Shown here piece by piece: positions 3,985 through 57,890 of a stretch of 64,000 bases of DNA; within the stretch, counting starts at the first letter, position 1; each line of letters begins with the position of its first letter. The notes under the pieces were generated by a model that did not search any database, was not told the origin of the DNA, and saw only the letters and a program-made list of their open reading frames with translations. Both the position numbers and the translations under genes were made by a program. Source of the DNA: Kineosporia sp. NBRC 101731 (GTDB lineage Bacteria; Actinomycetota; Actinomycetes; Actinomycetales; Kineosporiaceae); assembly GCF_030269305.1 (NCBI RefSeq), contig NZ_BSTC01000005.1:434001-498000 (forward strand), in the 5' to 3' direction.

Positions 3985-4033
3985 TTGTCCGTGATCATGC
4001 AAACTCGTTCGTGATCGTGCAAAGTGTCCCCGG
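3985..4033 (+). repeat. Two direct copies of the dispersed GTGATCATGCAAA repeat
   Basis: Copy 1 (3985-4003) reads TTGTCCGTGATCATGCAAA. Copy 2 (4008-4033) begins TTCGTGATCGTGCAAAG and continues TGTCCCCGG. The second is almost identical to the copy at 47751-47775. See the findings for the family. Confidence 0.75.
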
Positions 4034-13639: not shown

Positions 13640-15109
13640 ATGGCACGGAACAGGCAGACGAGGTCCTGGGCCGGTGGCTCCCTGACCGGGGCCAGCCGCG
13701 TCCCGCTCTGGCTGGACAACGCCGGTGCACCCGCTCCCCGCGGGAGTCTCGACGCCGACCTGCTGGTCGATCTGCTCGTCGTGGGTGGCGGTTTCACCGG
13801 CCTGTGGGCGGCGCTCCAGGCAGTGGAGGAGAATCCGGGACGATCCGTCGCCCTGGTCGAGGCGGGTTCCCTCGGGTGGGCGGCCAGCGGCCGCAACGGC
13901 GGGTTCTGCTCGGCCACCCTGACGCACGGCCTGAGTAACGGGCTGTCCCGCTGGCCCGGTGAGATGGCGCTGCTGGAGCGTCTGGGCCGGGAGAACCTCG
14001 ACGGCATCGAGCAGTCGATCGCGCGCCACGGCATCGATTGCGGATGGACGCGGGCGGGCGAGATGACCGCTGCGGTCGAGCCCTGGCAGGTGGACGACCT
14101 GGCCGAGTCGGTGCGCGTCGCACAGCAGCTGGGTGGCCGGGCGACGATGGTGGACGCGGTGGGCGCCCGGGCGGTCGCCGGTTCCCACACGTACCTGGCG
14201 GGTGCGGTGGACCCGGACTCCACGGCGGTCCTCGATCCGGCCCGCCTGGTGTGGGGGCTGGCCGACGCGGTCGAGCGGCTCGGGGTCACGATCGTCGAGG
14301 GGACGCGCGTGGTGGGTCTGCGCGACGAGGGGACGCGGGTGGCGGCCCGGGTCTGCACGGGTCTGGACACCGGTCTGGCGTCGGCCCCGGAATCTTCGGT
14401 CGTGCGGGAGTTCACCGTGCGGGCGAGCCGGGTGGTGCTGGCGACCAACGTGTTCCCGAACCCGCTGCGCCGTCTGCGCCCGTTCACGGTGCCGGTCTGG
14501 GACCACGTGCTGGCCACCGAACCCCTCACCGACCGGCAGTGGGACGACCTGGGATGGCACGGTGGGCAGGGCATCTCAGACGCCGGCAACCAGTTCCACT
14601 ACTACCGCACCACGCCCGACCGGCGTGTGGTCTGGGGCGGCTACGACGCCCTGTACTACTACGGCTCGGACCTGGCCCAGCGCCGCATGCGCCGGGACGA
14701 CACCGAGAAACGCCTGGCCGAGCACTTCTTCACCACCTTCCCGCAGCTGCGGGGCGTGCGGTTCAGCCACGCCTGGGGTGGTGCCATCGACACGAGCACC
14801 CGGTTCACGGCGCTCTGGGCCCGGGCGCTCGGGGGCAAGGTGGCGTCGGTCAACGGCTTCACCGGTCTCGGCGTGGGCGCGTCCCGGTTCGGTGCCCGCG
14901 TGGCCCTGGACCTGCTGGAGGGCACCGAGAACGAGCGCACCCGGCTGAGCATGGTGCGCCGGCCCCCGCTGCCCTTCCCCCCGGAACCCGTGCGCTGGGC
15001 CGGGATCGAGCTGACCCGCGCGAGCCTGGCCCGCGCCGACGCCTCGAACGGCCACCGCAACCTCTGGCTGCGCACCCTCGACCGCCTGGGCCTCGGCTTC
15101 GACAGCTGA
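13640..15109 (+). CDS. FAD-dependent amine oxidoreductase, second PuuB-like paralogue
   Basis: 489 residues. FAD site LLVVGGGFTGLW (about residues 45-56), then AASGRNGGFCSATL, the same motif pair as the oxidase at 5054-6466, and a C-terminal substrate-cap region ending in a conserved NGFTGLGVGAS. AGGAGG lies 6 nt before ATG. It closes the PotDABC operon, so it likely oxidises the imported amine or its gamma-glutamyl derivative. Two such oxidases on opposite arms suggest different substrates. Confidence 0.82.
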   Translation: MARNRQTRSWAGGSLTGASRVPLWLDNAGAPAPRGSLDADLLVDLLVVGGGFTGLWAALQAVEENPGRSVALVEAGSLGWAASGRNGGFCSATLTHGLSNGLSRWPGEMALLERLGRENLDGIEQSIARHGIDCGWTRAGEMTAAVEPWQVDDLAESVRVAQQLGGRATMVDAVGARAVAGSHTYLAGAVDPDSTAVLDPARLVWGLADAVERLGVTIVEGTRVVGLRDEGTRVAARVCTGLDTGLASAPESSVVREFTVRASRVVLATNVFPNPLRRLRPFTVPVWDHVLATEPLTDRQWDDLGWHGGQGISDAGNQFHYYRTTPDRRVVWGGYDALYYYGSDLAQRRMRRDDTEKRLAEHFFTTFPQLRGVRFSHAWGGAIDTSTRFTALWARALGGKVASVNGFTGLGVGASRFGARVALDLLEGTENERTRLSMVRRPPLPFPPEPVRWAGIELTRASLARADASNGHRNLWLRTLDRLGLGFDS

Positions 15110-15119
15110 ACCTGACAGC

Positions 15120-15147
15120 TGACCCCTGACCCCTGACCCCTGACCCC
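15120..15147. repeat. Four tandem copies of TGACCCC
   Basis: Four exact heptamers directly after the oxidase stop codon, flanked by CAGCTGA on both sides. Simple tandem repeat, probably slippage-derived; it lies just before the large inverted repeat. Confidence 0.8.
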
Positions 15148-15172
15148 TGCCAGCTGACCGCCCCAACCTTGT

Positions 15173-15257
15173 CCGTGATCATGCAAAACCTCCCCGGCGT
15201 TCTAGAACTCTCGGGCTCACAGTTCTAGAACACTGGGGAGGTTTTGCATGATCACGG
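15173..15257. repeat. 85-bp inverted pair of the dispersed repeat, probable terminator
   Basis: Left arm 15173-15195 and right arm 15235-15257 are perfect 23-bp inverted copies (CCGTGATCATGCAAA at the outer end, then a C-rich tail). A second perfect pair of arms, GTTCTAGAACT (15199-15209) and AGTTCTAGAAC (15221-15231), lies inside, with an 11-nt centre. It sits between convergent genes, so it could end both transcripts, but the shared sequence elsewhere marks it as a repeat-family member. Confidence 0.9.
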
Positions 15258-15288: not shown

Positions 15289-16977
15289 CTACGGCACCGG
15301 GAAGTAGTGGCAGGAGCGAGCGGTGCCCTCCACGTGGGTCAGGGCGGCGTCGAGGGTTTCGTGGTCGAAGCCGGTCCAGCGTTCCTGTCCGGCGCGGGTG
15401 TACTCGCCCCACGAGCGCACGGCGAACTGCTCGCGGTAGGTGTGATCGTTCTCGCCGCCGCGTTCCAGTCGCCAGGAGATCGCGCCGGTGCGGCGCCGTG
15501 ACCGTTCCACGCCCTTCATCGCGGTGACGAACGCCGCCGCCTCGCCGGGGCGCACCGTGTACTCGATCTCGACGGTGACCGGGCCGTCGGTGGGGTCAGG
15601 CTCGAACACCAGCTCCGGTGCGCCGGAGCTGAGAGCGGTGACGGTGCGGTCCAGCGTGCCGGTGGCCGCGCGCAGCGGCAGCACGGTCACGCTCAGGCCG
15701 GTGAGGACGAGCAGGCCCGCGGCGATCAGGAGGGCGTCCGAGCTGCCGATGGCGTCGGCCACCAGGCCCCAGACGAACGACGCGACGCCTTGACCGCCCA
15801 TGAAGACGAGCAGGTAGAACGCCACGCCCCGGGCCCGTACCCATCCGGCCAGGCTCAGCTGCAGGGCGGCGTTCAGGGTGGTCAGCGTGACGATCCAGGC
15901 CGTGCCGGTGACCAGGAACACCGGCACGAGCAACCAGACCGAACCCAGGGCGGGCGCGGCGCAGCCCACGGCGTAGGTGATCGCCGAGCCGGCCAGTAGC
16001 CAGGAGGAACTCAGCCGCCGGCGGAGGGCCGGGAGGGCGAAGACGCCGAGCACGGCTCCGGCCCCGAGTACCCCGAGCAGCACGCCGTACCCGCCCGACC
16101 CGAGGCCGAGCGTGCCGGTGGCGACGGTGGGCAGCAGCGCCCAGAGGGCGCAGGCCGGAACCGCGAAGAGCCCGGCGCGCAGCAGGATCCGGCGTACCCC
16201 GGGGGCTGAGCGAACGTATCGGGTGCCGGCCAGCAGAGCCTCGCCGAACCGCTCGTGGGCCAGTGGGGCCGGGCGCTGCGGGCGGTCCCAGCGCAGCAGC
16301 ACCACGAGCACGCCGATGAACGACAGGGCATTGAGGGCGAACACCGACCAGGGGCCGGTGAACCCGACGATCAGGCCGGCGGCGGCCGGGCCGATCGCCC
16401 GGGCGGCGTTGACGGTCACGCTTCCCAGCGACGCGGCTGCCGGGATCTCCTCCCGGGGAACCAGTTCCGGCTGGATCGCTTGCCAGGCGGGACTGGTCAG
16501 GGCGGACAGGCAACCGAGGGCGAAGGTCGCGGTCAGCAGCGACCACGGAGCCAGGACCCCGGTGGCGTCGAGCCCGACCAGGACGGTGGCAGCCACCGCG
16601 GAGAGCGCGGTGGTGACGACCAGCAGGCGACGGCGGTCGAGCGAGTCGGCGAGCACCCCGGCCGGCAGGGAGAGCGCTAGAACGGGAAGGAGGGACGCGG
16701 TCTGCACCAGGGCGACGAGGCTCGCGGAGTGGGAGTGCTCGACCAGGAACCACTGGGCCCCGACGCTCTGCATCCAGGCTCCGACGTTGGACGCGAGCTG
16801 CGCGGTCCAGAGCGTACGGAAGACCGGTCGCCGTAACGGGGCCCACGGTGAGGCGGAGGACGGGGGAGCCTGCGTCACGGAAACCACGGTCTGAGTGTCT
16901 GCCGGGGCTGGGTCCGGTGGTGAGGGGGCCGTCGGCCACGAATGCCTCGGATTCGGACACCCGGCCGGTGAGGGCAT
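15289..16977 (-). CDS. MFS exporter with C-terminal ABM-like domain
   Basis: 562 residues. About 12 membrane segments with the MFS loop LADSLDRRRLLV between helices 2 and 3; closest in type to the EntS/MFS_3 exporters (WMQSVGAQWFLVEHS; ALTSPAWQAIQPELVP). After the last helix there is a soluble domain of about 120 residues (VTVEIEYTVRPGEAAAFV), like antibiotic-monooxygenase-type dimer folds, which is normal for this subgroup. Start uncertain: ATG 16977 has a poor site, and GTG codons about 30 residues later are possible. Substrate unknown. It lies 47 bp downstream of, and co-directional with, the EAL gene. Confidence 0.82.
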   Translation of the reverse strand: MPSPAGCPNPRHSWPTAPSPPDPAPADTQTVVSVTQAPPSSASPWAPLRRPVFRTLWTAQLASNVGAWMQSVGAQWFLVEHSHSASLVALVQTASLLPVLALSLPAGVLADSLDRRRLLVVTTALSAVAATVLVGLDATGVLAPWSLLTATFALGCLSALTSPAWQAIQPELVPREEIPAAASLGSVTVNAARAIGPAAAGLIVGFTGPWSVFALNALSFIGVLVVLLRWDRPQRPAPLAHERFGEALLAGTRYVRSAPGVRRILLRAGLFAVPACALWALLPTVATGTLGLGSGGYGVLLGVLGAGAVLGVFALPALRRRLSSSWLLAGSAITYAVGCAAPALGSVWLLVPVFLVTGTAWIVTLTTLNAALQLSLAGWVRARGVAFYLLVFMGGQGVASFVWGLVADAIGSSDALLIAAGLLVLTGLSVTVLPLRAATGTLDRTVTALSSGAPELVFEPDPTDGPVTVEIEYTVRPGEAAAFVTAMKGVERSRRRTGAISWRLERGGENDHTYREQFAVRSWGEYTRAGQERWTGFDHETLDAALTHVEGTARSCHYFPVP

Positions 16978-18857: not shown

Positions 18858-18919
18858 GCGGCAGGCGGCAGGCGGCAGGCGGCAGGCGGCAGGCGGCAGG
18901 CGGCAGGCGGCAGGCGGCA
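18858..18919. repeat. Tandem heptamer GCGGCAG, about nine copies
   Basis: 62 bp of uninterrupted GCGGCAG units, ending where the last unit turns into GCGGCAT. Exact identity between units suggests recent expansion and a likely variable-number locus. Confidence 0.9.
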
Positions 18920-18947
18920 TGCGACCACGGCCGTCGGCATCTTCCTG

Positions 18948-19019
18948 TTCGTGATCGGGCGATACCTGACTCCCCGGCCGGGGTCTCTCGTTTCCGGGGA
19001 GGGTTTGCATGATCACGGG
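18948..19019. repeat. Inverted pair of the dispersed GTGATCATGCAAA repeat, one arm degenerate
   Basis: The right arm (18994-19019, read on the minus strand) is a good copy: CCCGTGATCATGCAAACC then CTCCCCGG. The left arm (18948-18980) starts TTCGTGATCGGGCG and ends CTCCCCGG but has diverged in the middle. It lies just downstream of gabT, so it may also end that transcript. Confidence 0.75.
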
Positions 19020-19047: not shown

Positions 19048-20439
19048 TCAGGCGACCTGTTCGGCGAAGGCCTCGGTGAGCACGGCGAGCGCGTCGTCGA
19101 GCAGGTCGTCGGTGATCGTGACGGGCGGTAGCAGGCGGATGACGTTGCCGTAGGTGCCGCAGGTCAGGGTGATCACGCCGTGCTGGTGGCAATGCTTCGC
19201 GACCCGGGCCGCCAGGCCCGCGTCCGGTGTCGCCGAGCCGGGGACGTTCAGTTCGATCGCCTGCATGGCTCCGCGCCCCCGGACGTCCGCAATCTGTGGG
19301 AACTTCGCCTGGAGGTCCAGCAGGAAGGATCGCAGCCGCTCGCCCAGCCGGCGCCCGGTGTTCACCAGATCGTCCTGCTCGATGGAAGCGATCGCGGCGA
19401 GCGCGGCGGCGCACGACACCGGATTGCCCGTGTAGGTGCCACCGATTCCGCCGGCGTGGGCGGCGTCCATGATCGACGCCCGGCCCGTGACCGCTGAGAG
19501 CGGCATACCGCCCGCGATGCCCTTGGCGGTGATCACCAGGTCGGGCACCACGCCCTCGTGCTCGCAGGCGAAGAAGTGCCCGGTGCGGGCGAAACCGGAC
19601 TGCACCTCGTCGGCCACGAACACCACGTCGTTCGCCGTGCCCCAGGCGGCCAGGGCCGGGATGAAACCCGGTGCGGGCACGATAAATCCGCCCTCGCCCA
19701 GGATCGGTTCGATCACCAGGCAGGCCACCCGCCTCGCGCCGACCTGGCTCTCGATGTCACTGATCGCCCGGGCGGCGGCCGCGGCCCCGTCGGTACCGAG
19801 CGGGTCGCGCAGCGGGTAGGACATCGGCGCCCGGAACACCTCGCCGGCGAACGGGCCGAAACCGTCCTTGTAGGGCATGTTCTTGGCGGTCATCGCCATC
19901 GTCAGATTGGTGCGGCCGTGGTAGGCGTGGTCGAACACCACCACGGTGTCGCGGCCCGTGGCGCGGCGCGCGATCTTCACCGCGTTCTCCACCGCCTCGG
20001 CGCCGGAATTGAACAGTGCGGAACGCTTTTCGAAGTCACCGGGAGTCAGGCGGTTGAGCGCCTCGCAGACCGCCACGTACCCCTCGTACGGGGTGATGGT
20101 GAAACAGGTGTGACTGAACTGCGCGATCTGCTGCTGCACGCCGGCGACGACGGCGGGCACCGCGTGGCCCACCGTGGTGACGGCGATGCCGGAACCCAGG
20201 TCGATGAGGTGGTTGCCGTCGACGTCCACCACGATGCCGCCACCGGCCCGGGCCGCGAACACCGGCATCAGGCTGCTGACCCCCGAGGCCACCGCCGCGT
20301 CCCGCCGGGCCGCCAGCTCGCGGGAGCGGGGACCGGGCAATTCGGTGACCAGGTGGCGCTTCTGGGCGACGGCCGGGAGGCTGTACTGCGCGGCGATCCC
20401 ACCGGTCGCGCCGGTCGGGGAGAGGGTGGAGTCGGGCAT
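19048..20439 (-). CDS. gabT: 4-aminobutyrate aminotransferase
   Basis: 463 residues. Class III PLP enzyme that converts 4-aminobutyrate and 2-oxoglutarate to succinate semialdehyde and glutamate. PLP lysine K306 in VITAKGIAGGMPLSAV; SGAEAVENAVK (145-155); VADEVQSGFARTG with the cofactor Asp. Length and motifs match GabT. The start is ATG 20439 because TATGCT, a -10 hexamer, lies 6 nt upstream (leaderless type); the frame continues upstream into dxr but is not gabT-like there. It takes the GABA produced by polyamine breakdown, linking it to the locus at 5-15 kb. Confidence 0.9.
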   Translation of the reverse strand: MPDSTLSPTGATGGIAAQYSLPAVAQKRHLVTELPGPRSRELAARRDAAVASGVSSLMPVFAARAGGGIVVDVDGNHLIDLGSGIAVTTVGHAVPAVVAGVQQQIAQFSHTCFTITPYEGYVAVCEALNRLTPGDFEKRSALFNSGAEAVENAVKIARRATGRDTVVVFDHAYHGRTNLTMAMTAKNMPYKDGFGPFAGEVFRAPMSYPLRDPLGTDGAAAAARAISDIESQVGARRVACLVIEPILGEGGFIVPAPGFIPALAAWGTANDVVFVADEVQSGFARTGHFFACEHEGVVPDLVITAKGIAGGMPLSAVTGRASIMDAAHAGGIGGTYTGNPVSCAAALAAIASIEQDDLVNTGRRLGERLRSFLLDLQAKFPQIADVRGRGAMQAIELNVPGSATPDAGLAARVAKHCHQHGVITLTCGTYGNVIRLLPPVTITDDLLDDALAVLTEAFAEQVA

Positions 20440-20451
20440 GGGCCCAGCATA
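20440..20451 (-). promoter_or_regulatory. Leaderless-type -10 box for gabT
   Basis: TATGCT (20451-20446 on the minus strand) ends 6 nt before ATG 20439, placing the transcription start at or next to the start codon. No Shine-Dalgarno is present. Confidence 0.55.
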
Positions 20452-20568
20452 GGTTCCGTAGAGATTTCTCGTGATCGCCCGGGCGCGGTCCGTCCTCACC
20501 TCCCCCGACGATCCTGAGCCGTCCGCCCCGGCACCGGGCCTGCGGTTCGGGATGCCAGACTGGCCGCC

Positions 20569-21744
20569 ATGTCTGAACGTCGCGACGTCGTGCTCCTCGG
20601 TTCCACCGGTTCCATCGGTACTCAGGCGATCGACGTGGTGAACCGCAATCCCGATCTCTTCCGGGTGGTCGCCCTGGCCGCCGGTGGCGGCAACCTCGAG
20701 TTGCTGGCCACCCAGGCGGCGCAGCTGAGGGTGGCGGTCGTCGCGGTCGGGGACGCGTCGAAGCGCGCGGCCCTCGAGGATCTCCTGACCCATCACGCGG
20801 GGGCGGGACACGGCATCGAGGTACTGGCCGGGCCCGATGCTGCCGCGCAGGTCGCGGCGCGCCCGGGCGACGTGGTGCTGAACGGCATCACCGGAGCCAT
20901 CGGCCTGGCCCCCACGCTCGCCGCGCTCGGCGCCGGCAGCACGCTGGCCCTGGCCAACAAGGAATCGCTGATCATCGGTGGCGAACTGGTGACGGGCGCG
21001 GCTGCTCCCGGCCAGATCGTGCCGGTCGACTCCGAGCACTCGGCGCTGGCCCAGGCCCTGCGCGGGGGGACGCCCGAGGAGGTGAAGCGGCTGGTGGTGA
21101 CGGCCAGTGGCGGCCCGTTCCGGGGCCGGACCCGGGCCGATCTCGAGAGCGTCACGCCGGCCCAGGCCCTGAAGCACCCCACCTGGGACATGGGTCCCAT
21201 GGTCACGACGAACTCGGCCACCCTGGTCAACAAGGGCCTCGAGGTGATCGAGGCGCACCTGCTGTTCGGCATCCCCTTCGACCGGATCGACGTGGTCGTG
21301 CACCCGCAGTCGATCGTGCACTCGATGGTCGAGTTCACCGACGGCTCCACCCTGGCCCAGTGCTCGCCCCCCGACATGCGCCTGCCCATCGCCCTCGGGA
21401 TGGCCTGGCCGCACCGGGTTCCCGGGGCGATCGGCGGACTGGACTGGACCACCGCGAGCACCTGGGAGTTCTTCCCCCTCGACGACGAGGCCTTCCCGGG
21501 GGTGCGGCTGGCCCGTGCCGCGGGGGAGCAGGCAGGCACGTTCCCGGCCGTCTACAACGCCGCGAACGAGGAGTGCGTCTGGGCCTTCCACGACGGGCGC
21601 ATCGGTTTCAACCAGATCCTCGACGTGGTCGGCGACGTTCTGGCCGACCACGCGCAGGAGGGTGACCTGACCATCGAGGCCGTGCTGGCCGCGGACACCT
21701 GGGCCCGGGAGCGCGCCCGGGAGCGCATGGCGAAGCTGACCTGA
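20569..21744 (+). CDS. dxr: 1-deoxy-D-xylulose 5-phosphate reductoisomerase
   Basis: 391 residues. Second step of the MEP isoprenoid pathway: NADPH-dependent rearrangement and reduction of DXP to MEP. NADPH site GSTGSIG (11-17), NKESLI and the metal/substrate region PVDSEHSA, then [20 protein letters not shown]. Divergent from gabT by 129 bp. CAGACT, a weak -10-like hexamer, lies 7 nt before ATG. In most actinobacteria the site-2 protease and ispG follow directly in the same direction; here a minus-strand GNAT-ispG block intervenes. Confidence 0.95.
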
Positions 21745-43433: not shown

Positions 43434-43469
43434 AGGACGCCCACCAGCCCACGGGCTGGTGGGCGTCCT
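43434..43469 (+). terminator. Strong terminator after the M16 peptidase gene
   Basis: A perfect 17-bp inverted repeat (43434-43450 with 43453-43469; outer bases AGGACGCCC / GGGCGTCCT) followed by TCATTTCT. It cleanly separates the pnp block from the gene pair at 43530-45330. Confidence 0.9.
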
Positions 43470-47750: not shown

Positions 47751-47775
47751 TTCGTGATCAGGCAAAGTGTCCCCG
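47751..47775 (+). repeat. Single copy of the dispersed GTGATCA repeat
   Basis: Begins TTCGTGATCAGGCAAAG and continues TGTCCCCG. Differs from the second copy at 4008-4033 by two bases, although 43 kb away and next to unrelated genes. Abuts the terminator hairpin. Confidence 0.8.
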
Positions 47776-57848: not shown

Positions 57849-57890
57849 TTCGTGATCAGGCAGAGCGTGCCCAGAGTTCTGGAACTCCGC
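57849..57890 (+). repeat. Diverged copy of the dispersed repeat with inner AGTTCTGGAACT
   Basis: Begins TTCGTGATCAGGCAGAG; after a CCC it contains the palindrome AGTTCTGGAACT. The order (core, C-rich tail, then TTCTxGAAC palindrome) matches one whole half of the element at 15173-15257, showing that the inner palindrome belongs to the family. Confidence 0.65.

Follow-up and report, generated by a model that had tools for sequence, protein, structure and literature searches.

The window, by which we mean the whole 64,000-nucleotide stretch analysed here, belongs to an 8.26 Mb Kineosporia genome (G000), and between two of its convergent genes lies an 85-bp element built of two nested inverted repeats. 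The parts of the element and its two neighbours are the following:

13640 to 15109, + strand: upstream neighbour, a FAD-dependent oxidoreductase gene (PF01266), with its stop 64 nt before the element
15173 to 15195, + strand: left outer arm CCGTGATCATGCAAAACCTCCCC; its first 12 nt contain the base motif CGTGATCATGC (15174 to 15184)
15196 to 15198, no strand: 3-nt interruption GGC, which differs among copies
15199 to 15209, + strand: left inner arm GTTCTAGAACT, which contains the palindrome TTCTAGAA and hardly varies within the 83-bp class
15210 to 15220, no strand: apical loop CTCGGGCTCAC, 11 nt, hypervariable (length kept, sequence nearly random among copies)
15221 to 15231, - strand: right inner arm AGTTCTAGAAC
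15232 to 15234, no strand: 3-nt interruption ACT
15235 to 15257, - strand: right outer arm GGGGAGGTTTTGCATGATCACGG, with the base motif GCATGATCACG at 15246 to 15256
15289 to 16977, - strand: convergent neighbour, an MFS transporter gene (PF05977), with its stop about 32 nt after the element

The nested arms are as perfect as the initial annotation described them (outer 23/23 and inner 11/11 complementary), and no other inverted repeat of the window comes near the element in length (41-nt arms, 93%). Its predicted RNA fold has an energy of -80.1 kcal/mol against a mean of -31 for shuffled sequences (z -13.2), which 0/200 dinucleotide shuffles equalled. A tandem 7-mer, CCTGACC (5.6 copies, 15111-15149), lies between the oxidoreductase stop and the element and repeats the context of the TGA stop.

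The element is one of many. The half site TTTTGCATGATCACGG has seven matches in the window at up to three mismatches, where 0.15 are expected, and 369 in the whole of G000 at up to two, against 0 for the reversed control. Besides the element itself, the window holds these members:

3990 to 4020, - strand: two solitary half sites side by side, between divergent genes
18950 to 19017, no strand: degenerate second copy of the family (a degenerate pair), between tandem (-/-) genes, 30 nt beyond the stop codon of the gene at 19048-21039
47753 to 47763, - strand: solitary half site, in a convergent gap
57851 to 57890, - strand: half element with a degenerate inner arm, CGTGATCAGGC at 57851 and then AGAGTTCTGGAACTC

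The last was already known as a second site at 57849-57890, and the partial match is real, but it amounts to a single degenerate half; the members at 18950-19017, 3990-4020 and 47753 are additional to those first annotated. Just before the degenerate hairpin at 18950 there is a GCGGCAG tandem array (9.4 copies, 98% match, 18858-18923).

Exact-motif hairpins, defined as CGTGATCANGC...GCNTGATCACG and counted at gaps of 12-42 and of 43-73, number 86 and 80 in G000, i.e., at least 166, and 61 and 110, i.e., 171 or more, in the nearest named relative, Kineosporia mesophila JCM 16902 (94% amino-acid identity for the element's neighbouring gene). The proposal of a multi-copy hairpin element is thus borne out. 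The family is not high-copy in four of the five other Kineosporia, which have 0-4 copies each (G003 3+0, G004 3+1, G001 and G005 none). Four main size classes occur. The 44-bp form consists of the base, a middle and CCCC/GGGG; the 60-bp form carries a single TTCTAGAA at its tip; the 83-bp form, to which the 85-bp element belongs with one extra pair at its base, has two TTCTAGAA and a loop; and the 112-bp form has an extra hairpin module, CCCCCAGCCTTCGGCCGGGAGGTGCCCCC, on one arm. The last was counted over the opening 1.2 Mb of contig C1, where it has eight copies. At C1:616772-616808 and 356057-356083 of G000, half sites are in addition paired the other way round, + before - at a spacing of 26-36 bp and with the GGGG ends facing outward, and this is a different palindrome made of the same halves. 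A second family of gene-end hairpins in G000 has another fixed base, TGRAGGACG...CGTCCTYCA, with a matched variable middle and often a palindromic tip, GAGACTCGAGTCTC; copies lie at 43434-43469 of the window and at C1:342363, 952065, 982134 and 1446852, among others. It counts 13 exact copies in G000, five in K. mesophila and two in G005, and in an order-wide test it rose above noise in Kineosporia only.

The location of the copies was surveyed over 1.56 Mb (contig C1, the window and contig C45 of K. mesophila) with a purpose-written, codon-based gene caller, one half of each hairpin being allowed one mismatch. The 67 hairpins found in the two Kineosporia genomes distribute as 29 in convergent, 30 in tandem and four in divergent gaps, with four in predicted genes, while the intergenic bases of the same 1.56 Mb are 12.6% convergent, 53.6% tandem and 33.8% divergent. 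Exact halves are mostly extragenic pairs, with few inside genes. Tandem-gap copies lie a median of 15.5 nt from the upstream stop (mostly 7-25 nt) and 144.5 nt from the downstream start, and in 20 of 24 roomy tandem gaps the copy is nearer the stop (p = 0.0015). Ordinary perfect hairpins of at least 10 bp fill the same place, a median of 9 nt from the stop, in 43% of the convergent gaps without an element (5% of divergent gaps, 0% of shuffles), so the element occupies the slot of a terminator. A stable hairpin shortly past stop codons is what an intrinsic terminator offers, and the family does offer it. T makes up 24-39% of positions 7-12 after the hairpin, a mild enrichment at about +6 to +12 and no canonical U-tract. 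Complementarity of the flanks beyond the stem, in Kineosporia, was not above that of shuffled partners.

In the set of 35 copies of the 44-bp form, the base CGTGATCA and the GC that follows it are invariant, an invariance partly imposed by the search pattern; since an exact pattern of the base served to retrieve these copies, this set alone is no proof of it. One base position (T/A or G/C) was free in the pattern, and it is itself mirrored. Independent support comes from other families, where the base CGTGATCA(T/G)GC closes hairpins with wholly different stems elsewhere in the class. G007, of the same family as Kineosporia, has 59 such copies (CACTTTCGAnnnnTCGAAAGTG); G034 has 12 and G013 five, and others occur in G016, G027, G462 and G467; outside the order, there are 34 in G710 (CACGTCCTGGG...), four in G694 and one in G744, and single matches such as the latter may be due to chance. 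Altogether, 13/248 genomes of the order and three of about 138 sampled class members outside it carry base hairpins, with reversed-pattern controls at 0 throughout. Copies of the base in nine other genomes (43) show the same location, 24 in convergent and 19 in tandem gaps with none in divergent gaps or genes, single distances in these genera being approximate because the gene caller was trained on Kineosporia. Hairpins of 42 bp in G007 (L201-L208) abut the stop codons of convergent genes, several at both genes' stops, and some G007 stems run on through both TGA/TCA stops. Terminators surveyed in 13 genomes are reported to lack any conservation of the sequence around the hairpin (PMC8355165), which makes a fixed base unusual. 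The literature searched for the motif as a string holds no description of it: the match in the S. coelicolor literature proved to be an entry in a table of ArgR sites, the other matches were in unrelated papers, and a search for Kineosporia with palindromic repeats gave nothing relevant.

The perfection of the arms was originally ascribed to recent formation or active upkeep, and for the family only the latter stands. Among the 35 distinct 44-bp copies, 94.7% of alignment cells pair, as opposed to 32-46% in slid controls, and two-sided changes affect 70 cells where shuffling gives 22.2 (0/500 shuffles), nearly all of them mid-stem. Mirrored differences are also seen at the same locus between G000 and K. 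mesophila, namely at C1:738107, 740299, 767695 and 785600 and partly at 825815. The 83-bp class was compared over 57 copies. Their arms differ at a mean of 1.9 of 62 positions (3%, i.e., about 97% alike), and their loops at 4.61 of the nine central positions, compared to 4.76 after column shuffling; pairs that seem to come from the same locus in the two species contribute to the slight surplus of similar loops. With arms near-identical and loops unrelated, these copies are not recent duplicates of the whole element; the arms are either kept alike or restored to likeness, and the loops diverge independently. At C1:638934 and C1:663296, G000 has a module arm and K. mesophila a plain one, with loops that differ by only one or two bases, so that an arm was exchanged there without the loop. 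Replacement of one arm by the 29-31-nt module is seen at four places in G000 (C1:636056, 638934, 663296 and 805856), all four of which have the plain arm in K. mesophila. Over about 270 kb of synteny, 13/16 hairpins have a counterpart at the matching position in K. mesophila, and most tested copies therefore predate the split from that species; the remaining three absences show neither clean breakpoints nor target duplication. Together with the mirrored arm changes and the near-random loops, this is why active upkeep explains the perfection and recent copying does not. Template switching is a documented route to the making and repair of stems, and mirrored changes can come from it without selection (PMC8794818).

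The copy at the window locus has a narrower history. In K. mesophila the element is gone and the MFS gene is partly deleted, for which reason the locus cannot serve as a clean empty site. In Kineosporia G003 both neighbour genes are kept about 40 bp apart, and the element is missing between them, which means that it is dispensable at this place in that species. Missing from both loci, this copy is lineage-specific. The initial annotation held that conservation of the element at its place across distant genera, with absence elsewhere in the genome, would make it simply a terminator; the outcome is mixed, as the copy is not conserved at its locus (G003) and the family is abundant genome-wide. 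Since the copies are located as terminators are, ‘terminator’ and ‘repeat family’ are not mutually exclusive here.

Could the family be mobile? Like REP, BIME and REPIN sequences (PMC3733652, PMC3116915), it is dispersed, palindromic, high-copy and extragenic, and lies 3′ of genes and between convergent genes (for REPs, see PMC3733652). It also has two inverted halves, and the initial annotation suggested the architecture of a REPIN, in which case a RAYT transposase would mobilise it. That identity does not hold up and we consider it highly improbable. RAYT (Y1_Tnp, PF01797) gave 0 matches in G000 and nine other Actinomycetes genomes (eight carriers of the motif and G003), with positive controls detected in the control genomes; the unpaired GTAG/CGTC tag is absent; the halves pair with each other into a single stem and form no separate REP hairpins; the conserved part lies inside the stem; and high copy number is lacking in the four Kineosporia named above. 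GTAG- and CGTC-tagged REP families are described for other phyla, the text of PMC3733652 making no mention of Actinobacteria. A MITE-like, non-autonomous element, with its invariant ends CGTGATCATGC as the site of some putative transposase, and inserting in or near terminators so that the gene-end position would mostly reflect tolerance, is less far-fetched, yet still unlikely. Like MITEs, the family is short, has conserved terminal inverted repeats (CGTGATCATGC/GCATGATCACG) around a lineage-specific interior and is high-copy in some lineages only, in what looks like a boom-and-bust spread (two Kineosporia with 166+ and 171+ copies and four others with 0-4, then 59 in G007 and 34 in G710), and 3/16 copies are missing in K. 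mesophila. Against it, neither target duplications nor surplus direct repeats were seen around 63 copies, clean empty sites were not found, no transposase was identified (RAYT being absent from the genomes searched), and viral contigs, phages and plasmids had no match to the family. Moreover, recent copy-and-paste would not give loops as different as column-shuffled ones on arms about 97% alike.

The stems might also be neutral palindromes with no terminator function, their arms kept perfect by template switching, which makes and repairs perfect stems (PMC8794818), and their location shaped only by selection that purges them from promoters and coding sequence. Purifying selection alone does predict depletion from divergent gaps and genes, but it leaves unexplained why copies in tandem gaps follow the upstream stop so closely (mostly 7-25 nt) and why the base is invariant across families while the mid-stem changes freely, and we regard this account as rather more doubtful than the MITE-like one. 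Rfam returned nothing above the gathering score, only sub-threshold miRNA models, as expected of any long hairpin. An integron attC site was considered, given the nested arms and variable loop of the element, and dropped as a candidate; the stem is symmetric, the copies lie scattered and no cassette array came to light.

What we have, then, is a dispersed family of gene-end hairpins of conserved structure, whose fixed base recurs on unrelated stems across the class. Judging from sequence and position, it is probably a bidirectional, terminator-like hairpin with a sequence-specific base. Either strand of the element, lying between the convergent genes, would fold into a 23-bp stem that leads over a short internal loop to an 11-bp stem capped by an 11-nt loop, so that RNA from either gene would form the same hairpin just past its stop codon. 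This hairpin could dislodge or block RNA polymerase and protect the 3′ end, i.e., act as a terminator or 3′-end barrier, and with polymerase stopped there, neither transcript would enter the opposing gene. The base CGTGATCA(T/G)GC would be invariant because a sequence-specific factor reads it, and two processes would keep the arms identical, namely palindrome correction through template switching and a conversion among copies in which the loops are spared. The family shares with intrinsic (Rho-independent) terminators a GC-rich hairpin that follows the stop codon by some tens of nt at most, and differs from them in its fixed 11-bp base on unrelated stems, its 22-35 bp stem and its nature as a dispersed repeat. 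Several points speak against termination. After the hairpin, T is only mildly enriched and there is no canonical U-tract; terminator hairpins of Mycobacterium and Streptomyces are often without one (PMC8355165). Position alone is no proof, as REPs of other phyla lie at the same place past stop codons (PMC3733652). The element at this place is missing in Kineosporia G003, and to a plain terminator an invariant base would be unneeded.

There is a precedent for a short fixed motif at gene ends, for in Neisseria and Haemophilus paired DNA-uptake sequences double as terminators, the motif occurring as inverted pairs in gene-end stems. The present family likewise has a short fixed motif in inverted pairs that form gene-end stems, and differs in that its half sites, about 370 in 8.3 Mb, lie mostly outside genes. 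More tentatively, it is possible that the base is the binding or cleavage site of a putative, hitherto undescribed factor widespread in the class (Actinomycetes), be it a termination/roadblock protein or a recombinase that creates the hairpins and keeps them uniform, and, as part of the same suggestion, that gene-end hairpins of otherwise unrelated sequence belong to one regulated or mobile system.

In conclusion, terminators are thought to be unconstrained in sequence apart from their fold, and a fixed 11-bp base on unrelated stems in some ten families of the class would be either a sequence-specific component of the ending of transcripts or the footprint of an enzyme that makes hairpins. The frozen arms, set against random loops, offer a natural test of palindrome correction and of conversion between dispersed copies in high-GC genomes, and strong bidirectional terminators, should these hairpins be such, would be useful parts for actinobacterial genetics.
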